NCBI RefSeq assembly: GCF_000226295.1
Contig: NC_016025.1
Span: 372,001 to 436,000 of the forward strand
Source: Chloracidobacterium thermophilum B
GTDB lineage: Bacteria; Acidobacteriota; Blastocatellia; Chloracidobacteriales; Chloracidobacteriaceae
Reading direction: 5' to 3'
Length of the DNA: 64,000 nucleotides
Part shown: one piece after another, positions 38,164 through 48,687 of the stretch
Layout of the letters: every line of letters begins with the position of its first letter
Numbering within the stretch: the first letter of the stretch is position 1
Position numbers and translations under genes: made by a program
The notes under the pieces: model-generated
The model's input: the letters and a program-made list of their open reading frames with translations, nothing else
What the model was told of the DNA's origin: nothing
Database searches by the model: none

Positions 38164-39129
38164 TCACCTGTGCACGTGTGCCAAAAAGGTTTCCACCTGG
38201 CGCTGAACCTCTCCGCTGGCGAGAAGTTCGGCCGCGCAGGCGGCACCGTCAGCCAGCGTTTCCGTCCGTCCGGCGGCCACAAACCCAAGGCCGGCATTGA
38301 GCCGTACGCTGTGGTAATCGGCCGAAACGGTATCCCGTCCCGTCACGATGTCCTGGAACTGCCGCAGATTGGCCTCTGGTGTGTAGGGCTGAGCTTCTAC
38401 ATCGCACGGCAGGTCGAGCGGTGTCCAGGAGCGTTTGTCAATCCGCCGGGGCGTCACTTCATACAGGACGGAGGTTCCGACCGGCGTCAGTTCGTCCCGG
38501 TTTTCGTGGCCGCGCACCACGACCGCCCGGTGTGTTCGTGGGTCGGTCGCTAGCCACTGGGCAATGAACGCCTGCATGCGTGGGTGCGACACCCCCATGA
38601 CGCGCCGGCCGGGATGCAGAGGATGCAGCAGCGGGCCGATGTAGTTGAAAAGGGTCGGACGCCCGAACCGCCGCCGCGCCGCCGCCACAGCCTTGAGCGC
38701 CGGGTAACACTGAGGTGCGTAGAGAAACGCCAGGTTGGTGGCATCGAGCAGGCGCGGGAGCCGCTCCGGCGGATACTCGACCGGGACGCCGAGCTGTTCG
38801 AGCAGGTCAAAGCTCCCGCTCGTACTGGTGGCAGCGCGGTTGCCGAACTTGACCACGCGCACGCCCCCGGCTGCCAGAACGAAAGCCACCGTGGTTGAGA
38901 CATTGAAGTGCGGCCGACCGCTGCCGCCCGTGCCGCAGCAGTCAAAGACCGGCTCAGCCAGCTCCGGCAGGGGGCAGGCCGTGGCGCGGACGGCTGCAAT
39001 GAGCGTGGTGAATTGCTCAAACGTTGCGGTGTCGGGCGTCAACGATGCCAGCAGCGCATCGGTTTCCGCTTCACTCAGGCGACCAGCAAGCAGCGCGGCC
39101 AGATGGTTGGCCAGGGTCTCATCCATCAT
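38164..39129 (-). CDS. trpD: Anthranilate phosphoribosyltransferase
   Basis: 321 aa from ATG 39129 (second ATG at 39126). Transfers phosphoribose to anthranilate in tryptophan synthesis. PRPP motif DCCGTGGSGRPHFNVST at about residue 80, KFGNRAATSTSGSFDLLEQL near 110, and NYIGPLLHPLHPGRRVMGV near 170. Slightly short at the N-terminus for the family but all motifs are present. Other trp genes are not adjacent. Confidence 0.93.
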   Translation of the reverse strand: MMDETLANHLAALLAGRLSEAETDALLASLTPDTATFEQFTTLIAAVRATACPLPELAEPVFDCCGTGGSGRPHFNVSTTVAFVLAAGGVRVVKFGNRAATSTSGSFDLLEQLGVPVEYPPERLPRLLDATNLAFLYAPQCYPALKAVAAARRRFGRPTLFNYIGPLLHPLHPGRRVMGVSHPRMQAFIAQWLATDPRTHRAVVVRGHENRDELTPVGTSVLYEVTPRRIDKRSWTPLDLPCDVEAQPYTPEANLRQFQDIVTGRDTVSADYHSVRLNAGLGFVAAGRTETLADGAACAAELLASGEVQRQVETFLAHVHR

Positions 39130-39234
39130 CTTCTTCTGTTGACTCCAGCCTGCCCGGCGGTCCGGCATCGGGCTGGCAACTGGAGACAGGCAAACTACGA
39201 AGCATCTGACACAAAACAATTTTTTTCGGCTGCT

Positions 39235-39265
39235 CGGTGGTCACACGTTATTCGTGCGATCACCG
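39235..39265. promoter_or_regulatory. Candidate operator: 13-bp imperfect dyad upstream of the WYL regulator
   Basis: Arms CGGTGGTCACACG (39235-39247) and CGTGCGATCACCG (39253-39265) match as inverted repeats at 11 of 13 positions across a 5-bp TTATT spacer. It sits 48 bp before the regulator ATG in the gap with the divergent trpD. Its size fits a homodimeric HTH-WYL protein. Confidence 0.6.
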
Positions 39266-39312
39266 CTCATATACTACCCGCTGTAACACTGACCACTGTG
39301 CCACTGACCGCT

Positions 39313-40299
39313 ATGAACTCCACGCAGCGCACACACCTTCGCCAACTCGAACGTCTGACTTGGATTCACCGTGAAATCCAGGCGGGCCGGTTTCCGAACA
39401 CCAGGCGCATTGCCGAGCATTTCGGGGTTTCGCGCAAGACAGCCCAGGAAACCATAGATTTTATGCGCGACCGCTTCCAGTTGCCACTGGAGTACTGCGC
39501 GCAGCAGCGGGGATTTCACTACACCGAGCCGGTTCACTCGCTCCCGTGGATGACGCTGACCGAAGGTGAAATTGCAGCCATCCTGATGGCTGAGCGGCTG
39601 GCCCAGGCCTACGGCGGACAGGCCGCCGCTGGCATCACCGAAGCGCTCACCAAGGTCATACAGACGCTGACCGAAACGGTCTCCGTGGACCTGAACCATC
39701 TGATGGCCCTCCAGTCGGTCGAAGCACTTCCTACCAGCCCCATTGATCAAGCGCACTTCGCACTGTTTGCCAAGGCTATTGCCCACCGTCACCCGGTACG
39801 GATGGTCTATTTCACCCAGTCTTCGGGTGAGACCAAAACGCGCACGGTCAATCCCCTGCGCCTGCACAGCGCCAAAGCTGAGTGGTATGTCATCGCCTTC
39901 GATCACCTGCGTCAAAAAGTGCTCGACTTTCACCTGGGACGTGTCCGTGCGGCCGAACTGCTCGATGACACCTTCGAGCCGCCGACCGGCTTTGACATCG
40001 AAACCTATCTGAACCGTGGCTTCGGTATGATTCGTGGGGAAGATCAAACCTACGAAGTCATCGTGGAGTTTGACGCCTATCAGGCGCGCTGGATTCGCCA
40101 GCAGAGCAAGGTTCACAAAACGGCGCACTACACCGACCTGCCCGATGGCGGCTTGCGGGTGACGATGCAGGTCGGGGCGCTGGAAGGCGTCCGGCAGTGG
40201 GTTTTGCAGTATGGCGCACGGGTGCGCGTCATTGCCCCGGAGCAGCTTCGCACCATGCTGCGTACGGAAGCCGAAGCTCTTTTGAAACTGTATGCCTGA
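39313..40299 (+). CDS. HTH-WYL domain transcriptional regulator of the cas operon
   Basis: 328 aa from ATG 39313. N-terminal winged HTH (FPNTRRIAEHFGVSRKTAQE, residues ~25-45), then a WYL domain whose core reads NPLRLHSAKAEWYVIAFDH, and a C-terminal WCX-like region. WYL proteins next to cas genes usually repress or activate them in response to a nucleic-acid ligand. It precedes cas6 by 71 bp on the same strand and has a strong dyad upstream, so autoregulation and control of the cas operon are likely. Confidence 0.85.
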   Translation: MNSTQRTHLRQLERLTWIHREIQAGRFPNTRRIAEHFGVSRKTAQETIDFMRDRFQLPLEYCAQQRGFHYTEPVHSLPWMTLTEGEIAAILMAERLAQAYGGQAAAGITEALTKVIQTLTETVSVDLNHLMALQSVEALPTSPIDQAHFALFAKAIAHRHPVRMVYFTQSSGETKTRTVNPLRLHSAKAEWYVIAFDHLRQKVLDFHLGRVRAAELLDDTFEPPTGFDIETYLNRGFGMIRGEDQTYEVIVEFDAYQARWIRQQSKVHKTAHYTDLPDGGLRVTMQVGALEGVRQWVLQYGARVRVIAPEQLRTMLRTEAEALLKLYA

Positions 40300-40370
40300 G
40301 TTCAGGTCAGACAGGTTTTCTGTCCCGGCCTGGAGGTGATGCCTCTGAACCATTGTCCAAGGAGTACGTC

Positions 40371-40970
40371 ATGACCGACAGCCCCATCGTTGAAATGCGT
40401 TTTTACCTGTCCGGCGAACGCCTGCCGGTGGATCACGGCTACCTGCTCTATGCCGCCCTGTCCCATCTTCTGCCGTGGCTTCACGATGATACCGCCGTCC
40501 GGCTGGCACCCATCCGGGGACTCTATGCCAGCGGCAACAACCTGCTGCTCCAGAACTGGAGTCGGCTGGTGATACGTACCCCGGCTGACCGACTCGCCGG
40601 TTTTCTGGCGCTGGCCGGACGTACGCTCGACGTAGGCGGCTGCCGTCTGCGCCTCGGTGTGCCCAGCATCCACACACTCCGGCCGGCATCCACGCTCTAT
40701 GCCCATCTGGTGACGACCAGAAATGGGCAGGATGAAGCCCGCTTTGATGTCGAAATTGCTCGGCAGCTTGCGGTACTCGGCATCAACGGACAGGTTGCAC
40801 GTGGCGCCCGCCGTACGTTCACGGTTCACGGACGGCATCTCGTCGGCTATGCCCTGTCCATTTCGGGTCTTGACCCGGAGGCTTCGGTGACGTTGCAGGC
40901 GGCCGGCCTCGGCGGTCGCCGCAAGATGGGCTGTGGCTTTTTTGTTCCGCGAAAGGAGGGACAGCCGTGA
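40371..40970 (+). CDS. cas6: CRISPR endoribonuclease Cas6, MYXAN subtype (Cmx6)
   Basis: 199 aa from ATG 40371 with AAGGAG 8 nt upstream. RAMP-fold protein that cuts the pre-crRNA within each repeat. Sequence starts VEMRFYLSGERLPVDHGYLL, as in MYXAN-type Cas6, and ends with the Gly-rich loop GLGGRRKMGCGFF. His and Arg residues around 19 and 45 are candidates for catalysis. Its TGA overlaps the GTG start of cas3 (GTGA). Confidence 0.88.
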   Translation: MTDSPIVEMRFYLSGERLPVDHGYLLYAALSHLLPWLHDDTAVRLAPIRGLYASGNNLLLQNWSRLVIRTPADRLAGFLALAGRTLDVGGCRLRLGVPSIHTLRPASTLYAHLVTTRNGQDEARFDVEIARQLAVLGINGQVARGARRTFTVHGRHLVGYALSISGLDPEASVTLQAAGLGGRRKMGCGFFVPRKEGQP

Positions 40971-43450
40971 GCACCGCACTTCCCAAGTACCTACTGGCAA
41001 AGTCGTACCCACAAACGAAGTTTCCGCAGCAACCGCCGGACTACGCCCTGCTCCTTCAGCACAACCGCGACGTGGCGCAAGCCTGCACGGCGCTGGTGGA
41101 AGTCATTGGCCGACTTGTCCTGGAGCGCGCCGGACTTACCGAAACCGACATTGAAGCCTTCAAAAAGGCCATGGCTGCCGTGGGTTGGTTTGAAGACCTT
41201 GGCAAAGCCAACAGCCATTTTCAGGCAATGGTGACGAAAGCGCCGCAACTCATCCAGCTCCTGCGCCACGAGACCCTTTCCGGTCTGCTGCTCTGGCAAA
41301 ACAAAGCACTGCGCGAATGTCTCGAACCGGCTCTGGGTGAGTGGTTCATACCTGCCCTCTGGGCCGCCATGGGCCATCACCGCAAGTTTGATTGCGACAC
41401 CCAGGCTTCCGAAGCGCCAGCGTTGACAGTCTGGCTGAACCATCCCGACTTCCGGCAGATGCTCGTTGAGCTTGGCGAACGTCTGGAGCTGAAGACGGCT
41501 CCGCCAGCGTTTTCTGAGCCGCTCATCGTTGCCCCCGACAACCGGAACCGGGACAACCGCAACCCAAATGCGGTTTCAGCACGGCGCGCCCTGCAGGACT
41601 TGAAAGAAGATTTTGACGACCTCCGGGAGCAGCTTGCCCCGGAATGGTCAAAGCGCTTGGCCGTGATGAAGGCGCTTGGTATTGCGGCGGACGTTGCCGC
41701 CAGCGCCATTGCCGCCCGGGGACAAAGCGCCGCCAGTTACTCGCTGGATACCTTTGTCCGTGAAACCCTCGGACATGTCGGACTCGATGCGGCGGATTTT
41801 GATCGGCTCATCGGTGAATGGGCGTGGAAGGCCACCGGGCAGCCGCGCCCTTCCGACGCACCCCAACTTCCGCCCGGCTTTGCTTTTCGTCCCTTTCAGT
41901 GCGAGGTGGCCGCTTCGGAACGTTTTGTCACACTGGCCTGCGCCGGCTGTGGTTCCGGCAAGAGTCTGGCGGCCTACCTGTGGGCGCAGGCGTGGCAACG
42001 GCGCACCGGGCAAACCAACTTCCGGCTCTTTTTCTGCCTGCCGACCACTGGGACGACGACCGAGCACTTCAAGGACTACGCCCTCGAAGCGGGACTTTCG
42101 GCCGCGCTGACCCACTCACGTTCGACCGTTGACCTGAAAGCTCTGGCGGAAACGGCCGACCAGGAATCCGATGTGGACGCCAGCAACGCCGAGCGTGCCG
42201 CCCAGCGCGCCCTCGACGACCTGCGGGACAAAATCGAGGCGTTGTCCCTGTGGGACACCCCGCTGGTCGTCACCACGGCCGACACCGTGCTTGGACTGAT
42301 GGCCAACGCCCGCCGGCCACTCTATGCCTTTCCGGCCATAGCTCTGAGCGCCATTGTCTTCGATGAAATCCATGCCTTCGACGACCGGCTGTTTGGGCAT
42401 CTGCTGGCATTCCTGCAGTTCTTTCCGAAGCAGCCAGTGTTGTTGATGACGGCTTCCCTGCCCCAGCACCGGCTGGCGGCGCTGCAAAAGGTTCGCCCGG
42501 ATTTGCGGGTCATTGCCGGCCCGCCTGCATACGAACAGCTTCCCCGCTATAAACTCCGTTATCCCAGCAGTCCAGAAGAAGTCTGGCAGGCCGTTGCGGA
42601 CTGTATCGCGCAGGGCGGCAAGGTGCTCTGGGTGCGGAACCGCGTCGAATGGGCCAATGAAACCTATGCGGCCTGCCGGGAACGTTTTCCAAAGGTTGAA
42701 GTGAACGTCTATCACTCCCGGTTTCGCTACAGGGACCGGAGCAAGCTGCACCACTATGTCATCGGGAAGTTCAAAGGGAGGGATGCGCAGATTCTGGTCA
42801 CAACCCAGGTGGCTGAAATGTCCCTTGACCTGTCGGCTGATCTGCTCATCACCGACATTGCCTCCGTCCCGGCGCTCATCCAGCGCATGGGGCGGGCCAA
42901 TCGCCGGTCAACGCCGGAGTGTCCCCAGCCACCCAAGCCTGTCCTCGTCTGCCCCCTTCCGCCAAAGGCAGACGAAAGGGATAACCCGGCACTGCCTTAT
43001 GACGCGGAAGATATTACCGCTGCTGAACTTTGGATCGAGCGCCTTCTTTCCCTTGAAAAACCGCTCAGTCAACGCGACCTGGCTGACGCCTTTGGAAGCC
43101 TCTCACCGGGAAAAGACTTCGATGTTGAGCAGGCCTGGAAAGCGGCGTGTTTTGTTTCGGGGGGGTGGGAAACCCGTCCCGGCATGACGCGCGGCGAAGG
43201 CTACACGGTCAACGTCATCCTCGAAGCTGACTGGAAAGCGTACGGCCAGTCGGAGCCAGGCCGCGACTGGCTCATCGAGCACGAGGTTGCCATCCCGTTT
43301 CGGCCCGAAGTTCTGCGGTGGGGAACGGTGGGAAGCCGTCGCCTCGCGCCGGCCGAACGGGTGGCGTACGACTTCAACCCAGAGACAAAGAAAGGAACCG
43401 GAGCAAGATGGGTCAGCGCACAACCGGCTACCAACTGCCAAATCCTCTAG
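40967..43450 (+). CDS. cas3: CRISPR-associated helicase-nuclease Cas3
   Basis: 827 aa, GTG start overlapping cas6. Degrades DNA after Cascade binds target. The N-terminal HD-like domain shows H32, then W-F-E-D-L-G-K-A (E76-D77) where the family has H-D, and a later GHHRKF pair near 145. SF2 helicase motifs: Walker A CGSGKS near 330, DEIH at 466-469, motif III MTASLP, motif VI QRMGRANRR. The E for H change in the HD motif is unusual and could alter metal binding. The cas8 start lies inside its last 43 bp. Confidence 0.93.
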   Translation: MSTALPKYLLAKSYPQTKFPQQPPDYALLLQHNRDVAQACTALVEVIGRLVLERAGLTETDIEAFKKAMAAVGWFEDLGKANSHFQAMVTKAPQLIQLLRHETLSGLLLWQNKALRECLEPALGEWFIPALWAAMGHHRKFDCDTQASEAPALTVWLNHPDFRQMLVELGERLELKTAPPAFSEPLIVAPDNRNRDNRNPNAVSARRALQDLKEDFDDLREQLAPEWSKRLAVMKALGIAADVAASAIAARGQSAASYSLDTFVRETLGHVGLDAADFDRLIGEWAWKATGQPRPSDAPQLPPGFAFRPFQCEVAASERFVTLACAGCGSGKSLAAYLWAQAWQRRTGQTNFRLFFCLPTTGTTTEHFKDYALEAGLSAALTHSRSTVDLKALAETADQESDVDASNAERAAQRALDDLRDKIEALSLWDTPLVVTTADTVLGLMANARRPLYAFPAIALSAIVFDEIHAFDDRLFGHLLAFLQFFPKQPVLLMTASLPQHRLAALQKVRPDLRVIAGPPAYEQLPRYKLRYPSSPEEVWQAVADCIAQGGKVLWVRNRVEWANETYAACRERFPKVEVNVYHSRFRYRDRSKLHHYVIGKFKGRDAQILVTTQVAEMSLDLSADLLITDIASVPALIQRMGRANRRSTPECPQPPKPVLVCPLPPKADERDNPALPYDAEDITAAELWIERLLSLEKPLSQRDLADAFGSLSPGKDFDVEQAWKAACFVSGGWETRPGMTRGEGYTVNVILEADWKAYGQSEPGRDWLIEHEVAIPFRPEVLRWGTVGSRRLAPAERVAYDFNPETKKGTGARWVSAQPATNCQIL

Positions 43451-44979
43451 TCTATGAACTCGGAAACCCGAACTTCACGGTCTATCACCGGGCGGCACTG
43501 GGCGGTCTGGCCGCGACCATAGAAGCCTGGAAGAAGAATCCCCGCCTGAAGCCGGAAGGGATCGCGGCCGAAGTTGATGCGGGCAAAGTCGAAATCCGGT
43601 GGGACAAAAAGTTGTCCGACCGGCAGTTCATTCGCCGCCTGCTGGAAGCTTCATTCCGGCTGACACCGGACAAGCTCATTGACCTGCCCGGACATGGCAT
43701 CGAGACCGACCGGGATGGCCTGCGGCTGGCCATCCATACGGGACTGTGCGGGACTTTCCTGCAACACAACAAGATGCGCCCAGGTGAAAAAACACCCCGG
43801 ACACTGAAGGTGCAAGTGGAAGGTGAAGAACAGGAGTATCTGCTTACCTACAAGGCAGTTAACTCCTATGCCCACCAGAAAGCTCAGGGAACACGTCTTT
43901 TGGGCGGCGACGATCAAGCCCCGTTGCCACCTGTGGCCTTGATTCCCCAGTCGGTTGTGCCGGGGGCGATGACGGGCGCCAGTGAGCTTGAAGGTCCCCC
44001 CGAAGAAGTGCTGCTTCTGCTTTACCTGATGGTCGGTTCAGCAGTCTTTCTGCTGCGCTCGTACCGCCACGAAAGCAGGGCGCAGTATTGTCTTGTCATT
44101 CCCGATGTCAAAAACCTGAAAAGTTTCGCCCGCAACCTGCGCCAGATAGCGGCCCGGGGTGCCAACTTTCTGACGAATGGTTATCCCGGCCGCATCGCCG
44201 GAGGCACCGAGGAAGCAGCGCTGCGCTTCCTTCTTGCCCTTGAAGCCGGCAATCTCACGGAGGAATTCGGGCGCAGTGTGTCCGGCTGCCTGGCCGTGGC
44301 GATGGGCAAAGCGCCCTGGGACAGGAAACAAAACTATCGCACCCTTGTCGTGCGGTTGGGCGCCGAGTACCCCGAACTCGAGGTCTTCCGCGCAGCGCTT
44401 CAGCATTTCGGTAAGGGGCGGCTGTTGACCTCGGCCAGGGGCGAAGCCTTTCCTGCTTCGCCCAACCCGCTGCCGGAACTCATTGCCGCCAACCTTGCCG
44501 CAGAACGGCACTGGTGCGCTGACTTCATCCAGCGTTGCCAGGAAAAAAAGGATTTTGAACAACTCACTTTCCAAAAAGGAGGACTGGCCGCCATGACCAA
44601 GGCCATCAAAGACGAGGACGACCAGGCCATCATCGCCATCTTTCACGAAGCCTGGCGGATGACCATGGGCGCCCTCAGCGAACGCGCGCAACGGGAAGGC
44701 AGTGACTTCACCGCCCTTGTCGAGCGCGAGCGCGAACGTACCCGCAACGCCATCCTGCGGGCCAAGACCGCTGAAGCCCTGGCCGGATGGTTTCTCCGCT
44801 TCTGCGCCGATGCCACCAAAGGTGCGGCGCTGGCTGGCATGAAGCGCAACGCAGCGCGCGTGCGCGAATTCATCTTCAACCCCCGCAACTTCGAGCGATT
44901 CCAAAACCTGCTTCTATTTGCCCTCGTCAGCTATATGGGCAGGGAAGACAACCTTAGTGAAGGAGGCATTGACGCATGA
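43408..44979 (+). CDS. cas8: Cascade large subunit Cas8a1/Cmx8 (DevT-like), MYXAN subtype
   Basis: 523 aa from ATG 43408 (AGGA about 12 nt upstream; a longer open frame inside cas3 is ignored). The start NPLVYELGNPNFTVYHRAAL GGLAAT matches the Cmx8/Csx13 N-terminus. Cas8 recognises the PAM and holds the R-loop. The middle is alpha-beta; the C-terminal ~200 residues are helical, the position of a fused small-subunit domain; no separate cas11 is present. Overlaps cas7 by ATGA. Confidence 0.85.
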   Translation: MGQRTTGYQLPNPLVYELGNPNFTVYHRAALGGLAATIEAWKKNPRLKPEGIAAEVDAGKVEIRWDKKLSDRQFIRRLLEASFRLTPDKLIDLPGHGIETDRDGLRLAIHTGLCGTFLQHNKMRPGEKTPRTLKVQVEGEEQEYLLTYKAVNSYAHQKAQGTRLLGGDDQAPLPPVALIPQSVVPGAMTGASELEGPPEEVLLLLYLMVGSAVFLLRSYRHESRAQYCLVIPDVKNLKSFARNLRQIAARGANFLTNGYPGRIAGGTEEAALRFLLALEAGNLTEEFGRSVSGCLAVAMGKAPWDRKQNYRTLVVRLGAEYPELEVFRAALQHFGKGRLLTSARGEAFPASPNPLPELIAANLAAERHWCADFIQRCQEKKDFEQLTFQKGGLAAMTKAIKDEDDQAIIAIFHEAWRMTMGALSERAQREGSDFTALVERERERTRNAILRAKTAEALAGWFLRFCADATKGAALAGMKRNAARVREFIFNPRNFERFQNLLLFALVSYMGREDNLSEGGIDA

Positions 44980-45929
44980 CGACCCACTACCTCTACGCCA
45001 CGATCCTCACCGGCGAGGCCGTTGCCGCCAACAATCGCGGCGACAATCTCGGCAACACGACAACCCTTCAAAAGGTGTTTCATCAGGATGACGTACACAC
45101 CAGCATTTCGGCCGAAGCCATCCGCTTTGCGCTGCGCTATCGCTTTCAGCTCGCCGGGCTTCCCGTCAACCGGCGCTATGACGGCGACAGGCTGATCTAT
45201 GCCGACGAAAAGCGGACGTACTGGGGCAGCCGAACGCCCTTCATTGACGACGATCTGATGGGCTTTATGGATGCTGCCGCCGCCCAGGCTGAACGTGATG
45301 ATGAAGAAGCCGAGCCGGGATCAACAGCAAAGTCTGGCAAGAAGAAAAAAGGGACGGTAACGAAGCGCACCAGCCCACTGGCCGTCGGGCGCGCCGTGTC
45401 GCTGCGCCCATACCGGGGTGAGCTGTCCTTCAACTGCGTCAGTGGGGTGAAGGAAAAGGGCAAGCTGTCGCTCTACAACGCCGAGATGCACACGACGGAG
45501 TACCAGTACAGCATTGCCCTCAACCTCAATGATGTCCTTGACAAGCAGAACATTGGCCACCTCATTGACGCGCTCATCGAACCGCCTCCGGTCGCCGGCA
45601 ATCACGCGCGGTTTTACTACGACTTTTCGCCGGCCTCGATTATCTTCCGCGTCACTTCCGCCCATGCCTCCAGAATCCAGAACTGCTTTGAGCACGATGA
45701 AGAAGGGCGGACGTACACCGTCGCCCGGCTCATCCGGCGCGTCGCAAGCGGGGACATCCCGGCAGAAGAACTCATCATCGGGGGCGAGTTGTCACATACC
45801 GATGAGGGGAAAAAGCTGAAGGAACTGGGTGTGACGGTACTCGATGGTGTCCGCAAAGCGGCGGATGAGGCCCGGCGGCGCATCGCCCGGCGGGACAAAG
45901 CCTTTGCCGTTCTTGCCGAAGGGAGGTGA
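44976..45929 (+). CDS. cas7: Cascade backbone Cas7 (DevR/Cst2 family)
   Basis: 317 aa RAMP protein that polymerises along the crRNA spacer. N-terminal LYATILTGEAVAANNRGDNL matches DevR/MJ0381-type Cas7, with the typical RFALRYRFQLAG and LSFNCVSGV segments. In Myxococcus the homologue DevR also regulates development. Six bp before cas5, so co-translated. Confidence 0.92.
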   Translation: MTTHYLYATILTGEAVAANNRGDNLGNTTTLQKVFHQDDVHTSISAEAIRFALRYRFQLAGLPVNRRYDGDRLIYADEKRTYWGSRTPFIDDDLMGFMDAAAAQAERDDEEAEPGSTAKSGKKKKGTVTKRTSPLAVGRAVSLRPYRGELSFNCVSGVKEKGKLSLYNAEMHTTEYQYSIALNLNDVLDKQNIGHLIDALIEPPPVAGNHARFYYDFSPASIIFRVTSAHASRIQNCFEHDEEGRTYTVARLIRRVASGDIPAEELIIGGELSHTDEGKKLKELGVTVLDGVRKAADEARRRIARRDKAFAVLAEGR

Positions 45930-45935
45930 GCGCCC

Positions 45936-46610
45936 ATGCTCACACTTCACGTTGAAGTGCCCTATGGAAGCTTTCGCAAGTCCTACGCACGGTCGCTGGC
46001 CGAAACCTATCCGTTGCCGCCGCCAGCCACGGTGTACGGCATGCTGCTGTCGCTTGTGGGCGAAGGTTTCCGGCGCCGGCACGTAGGTGTCCGCCTGGCC
46101 TTGGCCTTTAGCGGAACCTACGGCAACGGAAGCCAGCGGCATTCGCCTTTTCCCCGTGTAGCCCAGACGTTGCGCAAGCTGAGCCGTTACAAGTACGGCG
46201 AAGCACCAAAACAGTCTGAACAGGGGAATAGACCGGACTACATTGAAACCCTGTGCGACATCGCGTTTCTGTGCTGGGTGGACTCGGCGCAGGAAACCAA
46301 CCCGGAGCCAAGGCTTGAAATGCGTCTGCGGGAAGCCCTGGAAACACCGGAGAAGATCACCCGCTACGGCGTTCTGAGCCTTGGACTCAGCGATGATGCC
46401 GTCAACGACATCTGTCTTGTCCAAAAGCCAACCGGGGACTGGCACCGGCTGAAGCCAAGCCAGGAAGGATCGCTGGAGTTGCCGGTGTGGGTTGATCACG
46501 TCGGATCGCGTCATACCCGATGGCAACGCTACGAACTGGAGCGTGAGCCTGTCACTCCAACCGAGCCGCCTCTGGAAGCGTACTGGACGGTCATCCGGCC
46601 GCCTGCGTAA
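45936..46610 (+). CDS. cas5: Cascade subunit Cas5 (DevS family)
   Basis: 224 aa. Caps the 5' handle of crRNA. N-terminal ferredoxin-like strand and loop: TLHVEVPYGSFRKSYARSLA followed by LPPPATVYGMLLSLVGE, the Cas5 signature. C-terminal domain is short. GGAGG precedes the ATG. Confidence 0.9.
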   Translation: MLTLHVEVPYGSFRKSYARSLAETYPLPPPATVYGMLLSLVGEGFRRRHVGVRLALAFSGTYGNGSQRHSPFPRVAQTLRKLSRYKYGEAPKQSEQGNRPDYIETLCDIAFLCWVDSAQETNPEPRLEMRLREALETPEKITRYGVLSLGLSDDAVNDICLVQKPTGDWHRLKPSQEGSLELPVWVDHVGSRHTRWQRYELEREPVTPTEPPLEAYWTVIRPPA

Positions 46611-46678
46611 ACGCGGAAGCAAACACATCTGTGATGCCGCAAGGCGCTGAAAACCGGCTTACGACCTGGGAGGACAGT

Positions 46679-48370
46679 ATGGGAACACCGGACGATGTCG
46701 TGCCACTGACGCGCGTCATGGCACTGCATGCACTGGCCTATTGTGAGCGTCTTTTCTACCTGGAAGAAGTCGAGGAGATTCGTCTTGCCAATGATCGTGT
46801 CTATGAAGGCCGCCGTGTCCACCTGCAGGACATCAGTGAAGGGATTGAAACCCTGACCTACGAAATGGAAAGCGAGCGGTGGGGCATTCGCGGCAAGGTG
46901 GATGCCGTGCGCTACCGGGATGGGTCACTCGTTGCCTACGAGCACAAGAAGGGGAAATCCAACCGGCGCGCGGCCTGGCCGTCAGATCGGCTTCAGGTCA
47001 TTGCCTATTGCGCCCTGCTGGAGGAAGCCACCGGGAAGACCATTCTGGAAGGGCGCATCCGGTATCACGCCGACAATGTAACAGTGCGTGTCCCCTTTGA
47101 TGATGCCGCCCGCCAGGAGCTTCGCGCGGCGGTTGCGCGTGCCGCCGAACTCCGTCAGCACATTGAACGTCCGCCGGTCACATCCGACGTGCGTCTGTGC
47201 CGCCACTGTGCCTTGGCGCCGGTCTGTCTGCCGGAAGAGGATCGGCTGGCCGTCATAACAGCCGATGCACCTGAAAGTGAGGCTGAGCCAGCCGATGCCA
47301 AAGTCAGACGCCTGTTTCCTGAACGGGATGAGCGGCGCATCCTGCATATCACCGAACCGGGTACGCGCGTTGAACGTGCTGCCGAAGAGCTGGTTGTTGA
47401 GATTCCCGGACGGGTTCCCGTCAGGTTTCCCGGCAGAGACGTTGGCGCGGTCGTCCTCCACGGAGCGGTACAGATAACGACCCAGGCAATTCACTACTGC
47501 GCCGCCAATGACGTTGCCATCCACTGGTTGACCGGAGGCGGGAATGTCGTCGGCAGTTTTCGTGGCGGGACACCCGGCGTACAGCGGCGGCACCGGCAGT
47601 ATGCGGCCCTGTCTGACCCCGACTTTTGCCTTGCACTGGCTCGCCGTCTGGCAATGGCAAAAGTCGAGAACCAGATTCGTTACATCCTGCGGGCGACACG
47701 CCCGATGCTGACCGAAGCTGGGCGCGATCCAGCATTGGAACAACACCTGACGCAGATGCGCCATGCCTTGGCACAGATTTCCAGAGCGGTGGGACCGGAT
47801 GAGATTCGGGGCTACGAAGGGTCGGCCGGGCAGGCCTACTTTGCAGCTTTTGCATCGCTCATCCGCACTTCCCCTAGTGAACCGGGTAGCCCGGCAGGTT
47901 TTGAGTTTGTGGGACGCAATCGGCGTCCGCCACGCGACCGGGTCAATGCGCTGCTGAGCTTTTTCTACGCACTCGTTTACAAGGATTGCCTGGCAGCCTT
48001 GATCGCCGTCGGGCTGGAACCATCGTTTGGCTTTTTGCACACGCCCCGGAGTGCCGCGCATCCACTCGCGCTCGACCTGATGGAGCTGTTTCGCGTACCG
48101 CTGGCGGATATGCCGGTTGTTGCGTCAATCAACCGCAAACAGTGGGACGCCACGGAAGACTTCGTTGTTACGCCACACAAGGTTTGGCTTTCGCTGGAAG
48201 GAAAGCGCAAAGCCATTGCCTTGTACGAGGAACGGAAGCAGGAAAGCTGGCAGCATCCGGTCTTGCGTTACTCGCTTTCGTACCAGCGCGCGATTGAACT
48301 TGAAGCCCGTCTGCTTGAAAAGGAGTGGACTGGGGCGCCGGGCTTGTTTGCCAGAATGCGGTTGCGCTGA
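46679..48370 (+). CDS. cas4-cas1: Cas4-Cas1 fusion, adaptation nuclease/integrase
   Basis: 563 aa from ATG 46679 (GGGAGG upstream). Residues 1-~190 are Cas4: Cys22, RecB-type D75 and E88-x-K90, and C174/C177/C183 for the iron-sulfur cluster. Residues ~225-563 are Cas1 with E380, H454 and D466 as the metal ligands. Cas4 trims prespacers and sets PAM and orientation; Cas1 integrates them. Fusions of this kind are typical of MYXAN and some I-G loci. Next gene is cas2. Confidence 0.94.
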   Translation: MGTPDDVVPLTRVMALHALAYCERLFYLEEVEEIRLANDRVYEGRRVHLQDISEGIETLTYEMESERWGIRGKVDAVRYRDGSLVAYEHKKGKSNRRAAWPSDRLQVIAYCALLEEATGKTILEGRIRYHADNVTVRVPFDDAARQELRAAVARAAELRQHIERPPVTSDVRLCRHCALAPVCLPEEDRLAVITADAPESEAEPADAKVRRLFPERDERRILHITEPGTRVERAAEELVVEIPGRVPVRFPGRDVGAVVLHGAVQITTQAIHYCAANDVAIHWLTGGGNVVGSFRGGTPGVQRRHRQYAALSDPDFCLALARRLAMAKVENQIRYILRATRPMLTEAGRDPALEQHLTQMRHALAQISRAVGPDEIRGYEGSAGQAYFAAFASLIRTSPSEPGSPAGFEFVGRNRRPPRDRVNALLSFFYALVYKDCLAALIAVGLEPSFGFLHTPRSAAHPLALDLMELFRVPLADMPVVASINRKQWDATEDFVVTPHKVWLSLEGKRKAIALYEERKQESWQHPVLRYSLSYQRAIELEARLLEKEWTGAPGLFARMRLR

Positions 48371-48396: not shown

Positions 48397-48687
48397 ATGG
48401 GAGAAAGGCGGTGGTATCTCGTCAGCTATGACGTACGCGATCCAAAGCGGTGGCGCAAAGTTTATGAGCGCGTCAAGGGGAATGCGGAAAGGGTACAATT
48501 TTCCGTCTTCCGCATGTATTGCACCAAAACTGACCTTGAGCAGTTGCGTTTTGATTTGGCAAAGCTGATGACGAGTGAAGATGATTTACTGGTCATTCAT
48601 TTGTGTCCCGGCTGCGCAAGGCGTGTGGTTGACACCTCAACCAAAACTTCCTGGGATGAAGAACGCAAGCGGATTGAAATCCTGTAG
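48397..48687 (+). CDS. cas2: Cas2
   Basis: 96 aa from ATG 48397 (AGAGGGGGG upstream). Ferredoxin-like Cas2: WYLVSYDVRDPKRWRKVYER at the start with catalytic-type Asp, VQFSVFRMYCT strand, and DDLLVIHLCPGC. Bridges two Cas1 dimers in spacer integration. Last cas gene; the leader and array follow. Confidence 0.95.
   Translation: MGERRWYLVSYDVRDPKRWRKVYERVKGNAERVQFSVFRMYCTKTDLEQLRFDLAKLMTSEDDLLVIHLCPGCARRVVDTSTKTSWDEERKRIEIL

Follow-up and report, generated by a model that had tools for sequence, protein, structure and literature searches.

The imperfect dyad at positions 39235–39265 of the window (the 64,000-nt stretch of Chloracidobacterium thermophilum B DNA analysed here) is very probably a binding site of the WYL regulator encoded in the operon behind it, as judged from comparison of orthologous promoters (Table 1). 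An operator for this regulator had been proposed from the letters of the window. The binding-site part of that proposal is supported, since the dyad is conserved in congeners and has a counterpart before most other orthologues, with the difference that the core CACG-N5-CGTG, and not the whole 31 bp, appears to be the recognised element. "Operator" fits only as far as a putative WYL site is meant; a repressing role would be less likely, and both the fold relatives and the promoter layout lean to activation. Taken together, a WYL binding site used by a DriD-like activator is the reading that we favour, with fair but not high confidence.

Table 1. Features around the dyad and in the operon behind it, numbered along the window.
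Feature	Position	Strand	Remarks
Divergent trpD (anthranilate phosphoribosyltransferase)	38164..39126	-	named by eye; outside the box family
T7 tract before the box	39220..39226	+	possible UP-like element
Imperfect dyad CGGTGGTCACACG-TTATT-CGTGCGATCACCG	39235..39265	.	one copy in genome
Left arm CGGTGGTCACACG	39235..39247		
Gap TTATT	39248..39252		
Right arm CGTGCGATCACCG	39253..39265		
Putative WYL-box core CACG-N5-CGTG	39244..39256	+	top match of the family matrix, in register
-10-like TATACT	39270..39275	+	13 nt after the right half-site; predicted promoter
WYL regulator (328 aa)	39313..40299	+	wHTH, helical linker, WYL 148-215, WCX 246-324
cas6 (cmx6, type I-MYXAN)	40371..40970	+	
cas3	40967..43450	+	
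cas8a1/cmx1 (csx13)	43390..44979	+	start uncertain
cas7/devR	44976..45929	+	
cas5/devS	45936..46610	+	
cas4-cas1 fusion	46631..48370	+	
cas2	48397..48687	+	

The 13-nt imperfect palindrome of the sequence-only reading is present, with 11 of 13 arm pairs matching across a 5-nt gap, and 47 nt separate it from the ATG at 39313, close to the 48 bp that had been given. As a bare palindrome it is ordinary, and palindrome statistics alone are not decisive. Outside the CRISPR array (48.8 kb), dyads of at least 11/13 with a gap of 0–12 nt occur at 31 positions, the present one included, and three of these have a gap of 5. This corresponds to about one per 1.6 kb, and an intergenic stretch as long as the present one is expected to contain ≈0.1. 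When the 310 nt around the WYL start were dinucleotide-shuffled, the top dyad scored equally high in 4 of 60 shuffles. The site is single-copy at up to 3 mismatches in the genome (two contigs, 3,695,372 bases, of which contig 2 has 1,012,010). A zero chance expectation for the dyad was discarded as biased, since the search pattern had been built from the site itself.

The search for the dyad before related WYL genes, proposed with the sequence-only reading, supports a binding site: both readable congeners keep a changed version, and 25 of 27 non-congener orthologues carry a counterpart, a box of the type GACA-N5-TGTC that is usually followed by TAnnnT exactly 13 nt on. The first set of orthologues (HMM score above 430 bits; n = 22, including three congeners; the fragment L037 was dropped) contains 19 non-congeners. 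Within 150 nt upstream of the gene, the exact box is found in 9 of these, and in 14 when one mismatch is allowed; 200 shuffles gave means of 0.025 and 0.99 such promoters and never more than 1 and 5, respectively. A blind count over 256 half-sites and 13 gaps ranked GACA with gap 5 best, and among gaps of 0–15 exact GACA/TGTC sites occur at gap 5 only. The distance from TGTC to the start of TAnnnT is exactly 13 nt in 11 of the 14 box promoters; elsewhere in these promoters TAnnnT occurs once at 12 and, additionally, once at 5, and never at 6–11, 14 or 15.

A 36-nt matrix, with the -10 included, was built from the 14 non-congener promoters and applied unchanged. Seven new, held-out WYL orthologues came from a class-wide search of 162 genomes, and the matrix found the box before all seven, at scores reached by at most 1 of 300 shuffles. 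Their half-sites read GAC on the left in 6 of 7 and GTC on the right in 5 of 7, counts that are weighted by the matrix, just as TAnnnT at 13 nt is partly built into these seven matches because the matrix contains the -10. Altogether the box precedes 28 of 30 WYL orthologues (the 22, L050 and the seven held-out) and 23 of the 30 have TAnnnT at the 13-nt distance, although these sequences are related by descent and the counts are not independent. No box was found upstream of the WYL genes of L008 and L015. Sixteen lower-scoring WYL homologues (180–345 bits, L010 excluded; 15 in the matrix test, which left out L058) served as an outgroup, and 3 of the 16 have a near-box with at most one mismatch, one of them exact. 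The outgroup member L066 has two exact GACA-N5-TGTC sites inside 220 nt and a matrix match of 6.7 bits at -171 that none of 300 shuffles reached. In L051 and L052, which are distant Acidobacteriota WYL homologues, another dyad, GTGCA(C/G)-N5-GTGCAC, was seen by eye shortly before TATACT and might represent a third box variant.

When TAnnnT is numbered -12 to -7, the box spans -38 to -26 and lies over the -35 position. Among the 25 non-congener promoters, for which the matrix match served as alignment anchor and which include the 14 training promoters, conservation is restricted to the box (mean 0.87 bits over -42 to -22) and the -10 (0.71); the DNA further upstream and the spacer have 0.14 and 0.23, respectively. 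The T at -33 is conserved on par with the half-sites (1.57 bits) and its mirror position -31 is not (0.23 bits), so the box is directional. A -35 element with at least 4 of 6 consensus matches was found in none of the 28 promoters, as against 12% of random positions, and the mean of 2.25 matches is no better than chance (random 2.42); here and in the residue-46 counts below, 28 of the 30 orthologues are tabulated, the box-less L008 and L015 being left out. An A/T run of at least 6 is present at -75 to -45 in 17 of the 25 non-congener promoters, compared with 20% of 359 windows further upstream. From the -10 to the ATG the distance is 5–10 nt in 20 of 28 promoters, suggesting leaderless mRNA in most orthologues; the WYL gene of the window is exceptional with 37 nt. 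Its leader contains at 39290–39309 the segment TGACCACTGTGCCACTGACC, the start of which is an inverted match, over 12 nt at 83%, to the left box arm. This segment is absent in G005 and mostly absent in G004, and could be inserted DNA or serve as an auxiliary half-site.

The WYL and WCX domains of the regulator were recognised by Pfam, and its structure model, which is of moderate quality (pLDDT 79, pTM 0.48), contains a wHTH with helices 3–23, 30–37 and 41–53 that VIA aligned to wHTH proteins. As in DriD and PafBC, a wHTH, a helical linker, WYL and WCX follow each other in one chain, the linker (81–140) being modelled with pLDDT below 60. Both HMM and Foldseek searches among solved structures place PafBC and DriD above BrxR/CapW. 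The best Foldseek match is DriD 8tp8 (E 2.9e-18), the lowest E-value among solved sequences belongs to PafBC (3.4e-33, summed over two stretches of the fused chain), and the HMM match to BrxR/CapW is limited to ≈75–82 residues of the WYL region. VIA alignment gave Z 18.3 for the DriD C-domain and 17.4 to 14.4 for full-length DriD chains, a range that also includes one BrxR chain (Z 14.7).

Of the 28 orthologues with a box, 24 have Arg at residue 46, which lies within the modelled recognition helix (41–53); the three congeners have Glu and L081 has Ser. The left half-site is GAC in 21 of 24 orthologues with Arg46 and in 0 of 4 without it; a right-hand GTC gives identical counts, and both are found together in 19 of 24 versus 0 of 4. 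This is suggestive of a contact between Arg46 and GAC, with about two independent changes behind the counts. DriD reads guanines with arginines according to the accessible part of its description, and Arg46 may be an equivalent residue. The pair of residue and half-site is ready for a specificity-swap experiment.

In the mechanism that we infer, rather than observe, for binding, dimer, promoter, cas co-transcription, sign of control and ligand, a WYL dimer would contact either half-site (CACG and CGTG, 5 bp apart) with one of its winged-helix domains and straddle the -35 of the promoter from which WYL and the following cas genes are transcribed. With TATACT as -10 and no recognisable -35, the bound WYL would help RNA polymerase to hold a weak promoter. 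It would act as a DriD-like, ligand-switched activator of the WYL gene and the cas operon alike, and by analogy with DriD and PafBC the ligand could be single-stranded DNA.

Activation is favoured because of the DriD-like site layout and because DriD and PafBC are the best structure matches. The known systems are compared here as described in the accessible parts of their publications. DriD, a WYL activator from Caulobacter with the consensus ATACGAC-N7-GTCGTAT, has sites that overlap the -35 and keep a constant spacing to the -10, and its -35s match the consensus in 1–2 of 6 positions (PMC12340889). The same arrangement of a dyad over the -35, a fixed -10 distance and a poor -35 was found in the predicted promoters here, together with the same domain layout, and the core spacing GAC-N7-GTC equals that of GAC-ATTNNNT-GTC in the orthologues. 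Unlike DriD, which serves DNA-damage genes at several promoters, the window protein heads a cas operon and has one genomic site; moreover its half-site is CAC/GTG, and the distance from box to -10 is 13 nt compared with about 12 in DriD promoters (counted by eye). PafBC, a mycobacterial sigma adaptor, is likewise a WYL activator that substitutes for -35 recognition, but it consists of two subunits, needs RNA polymerase to bind its motif and uses PafB to recognise a motif at -26.

The same box could also work with the opposite sign, a WYL dimer covering the -35 and keeping the WYL promoter and the cas operon repressed until it is released by a ligand that arises upon infection or damage, as for BrxR or CapW. 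As the site geometry of BrxR is similar, we retain repression as a tentative alternative of rather low probability. BrxR (BREX) and CapW (CBASS) are WYL regulators of defence operons with a palindrome in their own promoter region, as was found here, and both are repressors. Acinetobacter BrxR binds half-sites spaced by 5 nt that cover a predicted -35 (PMC9122589), the palindrome through which CapW represses lies over the -10, and Sll7009 of Synechocystis (type I-D), a CRISPR-linked WYL regulator compared here by description, is a negative regulator whose knock-out raises crRNA. A lone site at the regulator's own promoter would suit a repressor as well, and BrxR falls among the DriD chains in the VIA alignment. 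On the other hand, the protein is nearer to DriD and PafBC by HMM and Foldseek, and steric repression would need neither the exact 13-nt phasing of the -10 nor the lack of a -35 consensus. A tie between WYL proteins and CRISPR has been known since Sll7009; the family box with its fixed promoter phasing provides a defined probe and the testable prediction that damage-type ligands may activate cas expression. In the accessible parts of the literature searched, mostly outside subscription journals, no DNA site was found for any CRISPR-linked WYL protein.

The within-genus comparison covered seven genomes, with readable DNA upstream of WYL in G004 and G005 besides our own; G006 (L010) was excluded because its contig begins 43 nt before the WYL gene and the reading frame is broken in two. 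G004, with a WYL protein 95% identical to that of the window, keeps the dyad with two bases changed, both in the right arm. In G005 (WYL only 70% identical) the 15-nt block TGGTCACACGTTATT is exact although the flanking DNA is much changed, and it is identical across all three aligned congeneric sequences. The right arm of G005 is TCTCCGACCACCG, in which the inner half-site is mostly lost (TCTC) and with it the inner symmetry, and the outer TGGTC/GACCA is kept. The best match of the family matrix in the 200 nt upstream is the dyad core in each of the three congeners, ahead of the second match by ≈9–12 bits. These sites read CACG-TTATT-CGTG (TCTC in G005), followed at 13 nt by TATACT, TACACT or TATGCT, and CACG-N5-CGTG is the positional equivalent of GACA-N5-TGTC in the other orthologues. 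By eye, the box TACG-TTATT-TGTC of L023 bridges the two forms. The matrix scores are low (1.8 bits for the window, -3.4 for G004 and 0.9 for G005) and were reached by 7, 34 and 11 of 300 shuffles, respectively, which amounts to modest evidence.

The region shared with the divergent trpD, another element of the sequence-only reading, is real but incidental, since, in the flanking DNA covered for 80 loci, trpD is present only at the WYL loci of our own genome, G004 and G005 (each of these three entered twice). No WYL homologue was found in G001–G003 at E 0.001, and the 15-nt block was not found with fewer than 4 mismatches in the trpD flanks (3.1–3.3 kb) of G001–G003, G006 or the second G005 copy of trpD, which matches Pfam Glycos_transf_3. 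As the block is missing at trpD loci that have no intact WYL gene, the dyad goes with WYL and not with trpD. This second copy (L074, G005:C2:688974-689304 with flanks) lies ≈22 kb from the first and has no box; by eye, a decayed WYL fragment apparently follows it. A chance origin of the palindrome, or a role with trpD or another regulator, would fit the frequency of equally good dyads, the divergence of trpD from the region and the family matrix, which by itself ranks the dyad only 12th over both strands of the whole window. We nevertheless consider this improbable, given the conservation of the dyad in register with the family boxes and the distribution of trpD and of the 15-nt block. An action of the dyad in RNA, as an attenuator, leader hairpin or terminator, is still less credible and indeed very improbable: it is an inverted repeat close to a gene start, but it lies upstream of the predicted -10, most orthologous promoters leave just 5–10 nt between -10 and ATG, and neither a terminator-like site in 39100–39400 nor an Rfam match in 38900–40500 (up to E = 1) was found.

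No genome-wide regulon was found in our own genome, where the family consensus with up to two mismatches gave 29 matches and the reversed control 27. A slightly wider pattern had 17 exact matches in 16 relatives, of which 12 are at WYL promoters by position. The other five compare with four in the control, and no cas or WYL-profile matches were found near them (flanks of up to 1.5 kb a side). A single local target in our own genome, and likewise in the relatives, is supported by these pattern counts.

The cas genes of the window form a type I-MYXAN set, with the models for cmx6, the Cmx1 N-domain, Cst2/DevR, Cmx5/DevS and MYXAN Cas1 all above their cut-offs; the Csx13 C-domain (44.4 vs. 47.4) and the Cas3 HD-domain model (43.0 vs. 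43.45) are under theirs. Control of these genes by WYL is plausible from the gene order. Cas linkage among orthologues was judged by phmmer, with one Cas3 in addition to the cas proteins of the window as queries, and NCBIfam models were applied to 10 proteins. A cas-like gene lies downstream of WYL in 16 of 19 non-congener orthologues, for L011 weakly, and L020 ends at a contig edge downstream of WYL. No cas gene was found downstream of L008 (checked by phmmer only) or L015 (one downstream frame by NCBIfam, two by phmmer), the same two that have no box. Two held-out orthologues, L085 and L091, have the box and no cas match, and the more distant L055 and L056 show cas linkage and no box. The correspondence between box and detected cas linkage is incomplete.

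On a wider scale, we suggest as a conjecture, with less than even confidence, that several type I cas operons across the Blastocatellia (MYXAN, I-G and those with a PRK09694-like Cas3) might be activated by cis-encoded, single-stranded-DNA-reading DriD-like WYL proteins through a family-wide "CRISPR box" at the -35 of largely leaderless promoters. The genus of the window would then have rewritten the contact on both sides (Arg46 to Glu, GAC to CAC) in a natural specificity switch.

Two congeneric loci differ from that of the window in their gene content. In G006 (L077:35-1053, G006:C23) the gene downstream of the split WYL gene encodes a Cas3 that is much closer to the one of L022 than to the window's own, suggesting decay or an assembly fault of the WYL gene and a cas type different from the window's. 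In G005 (L075:2783-5026, G005:C2) a 748-aa Argonaute-like protein (PAZ_3, E 2.2e-29) is encoded between WYL and cas6 in an operon otherwise the same as that of the window, and one WYL promoter may drive both the pAgo and the cas genes there.
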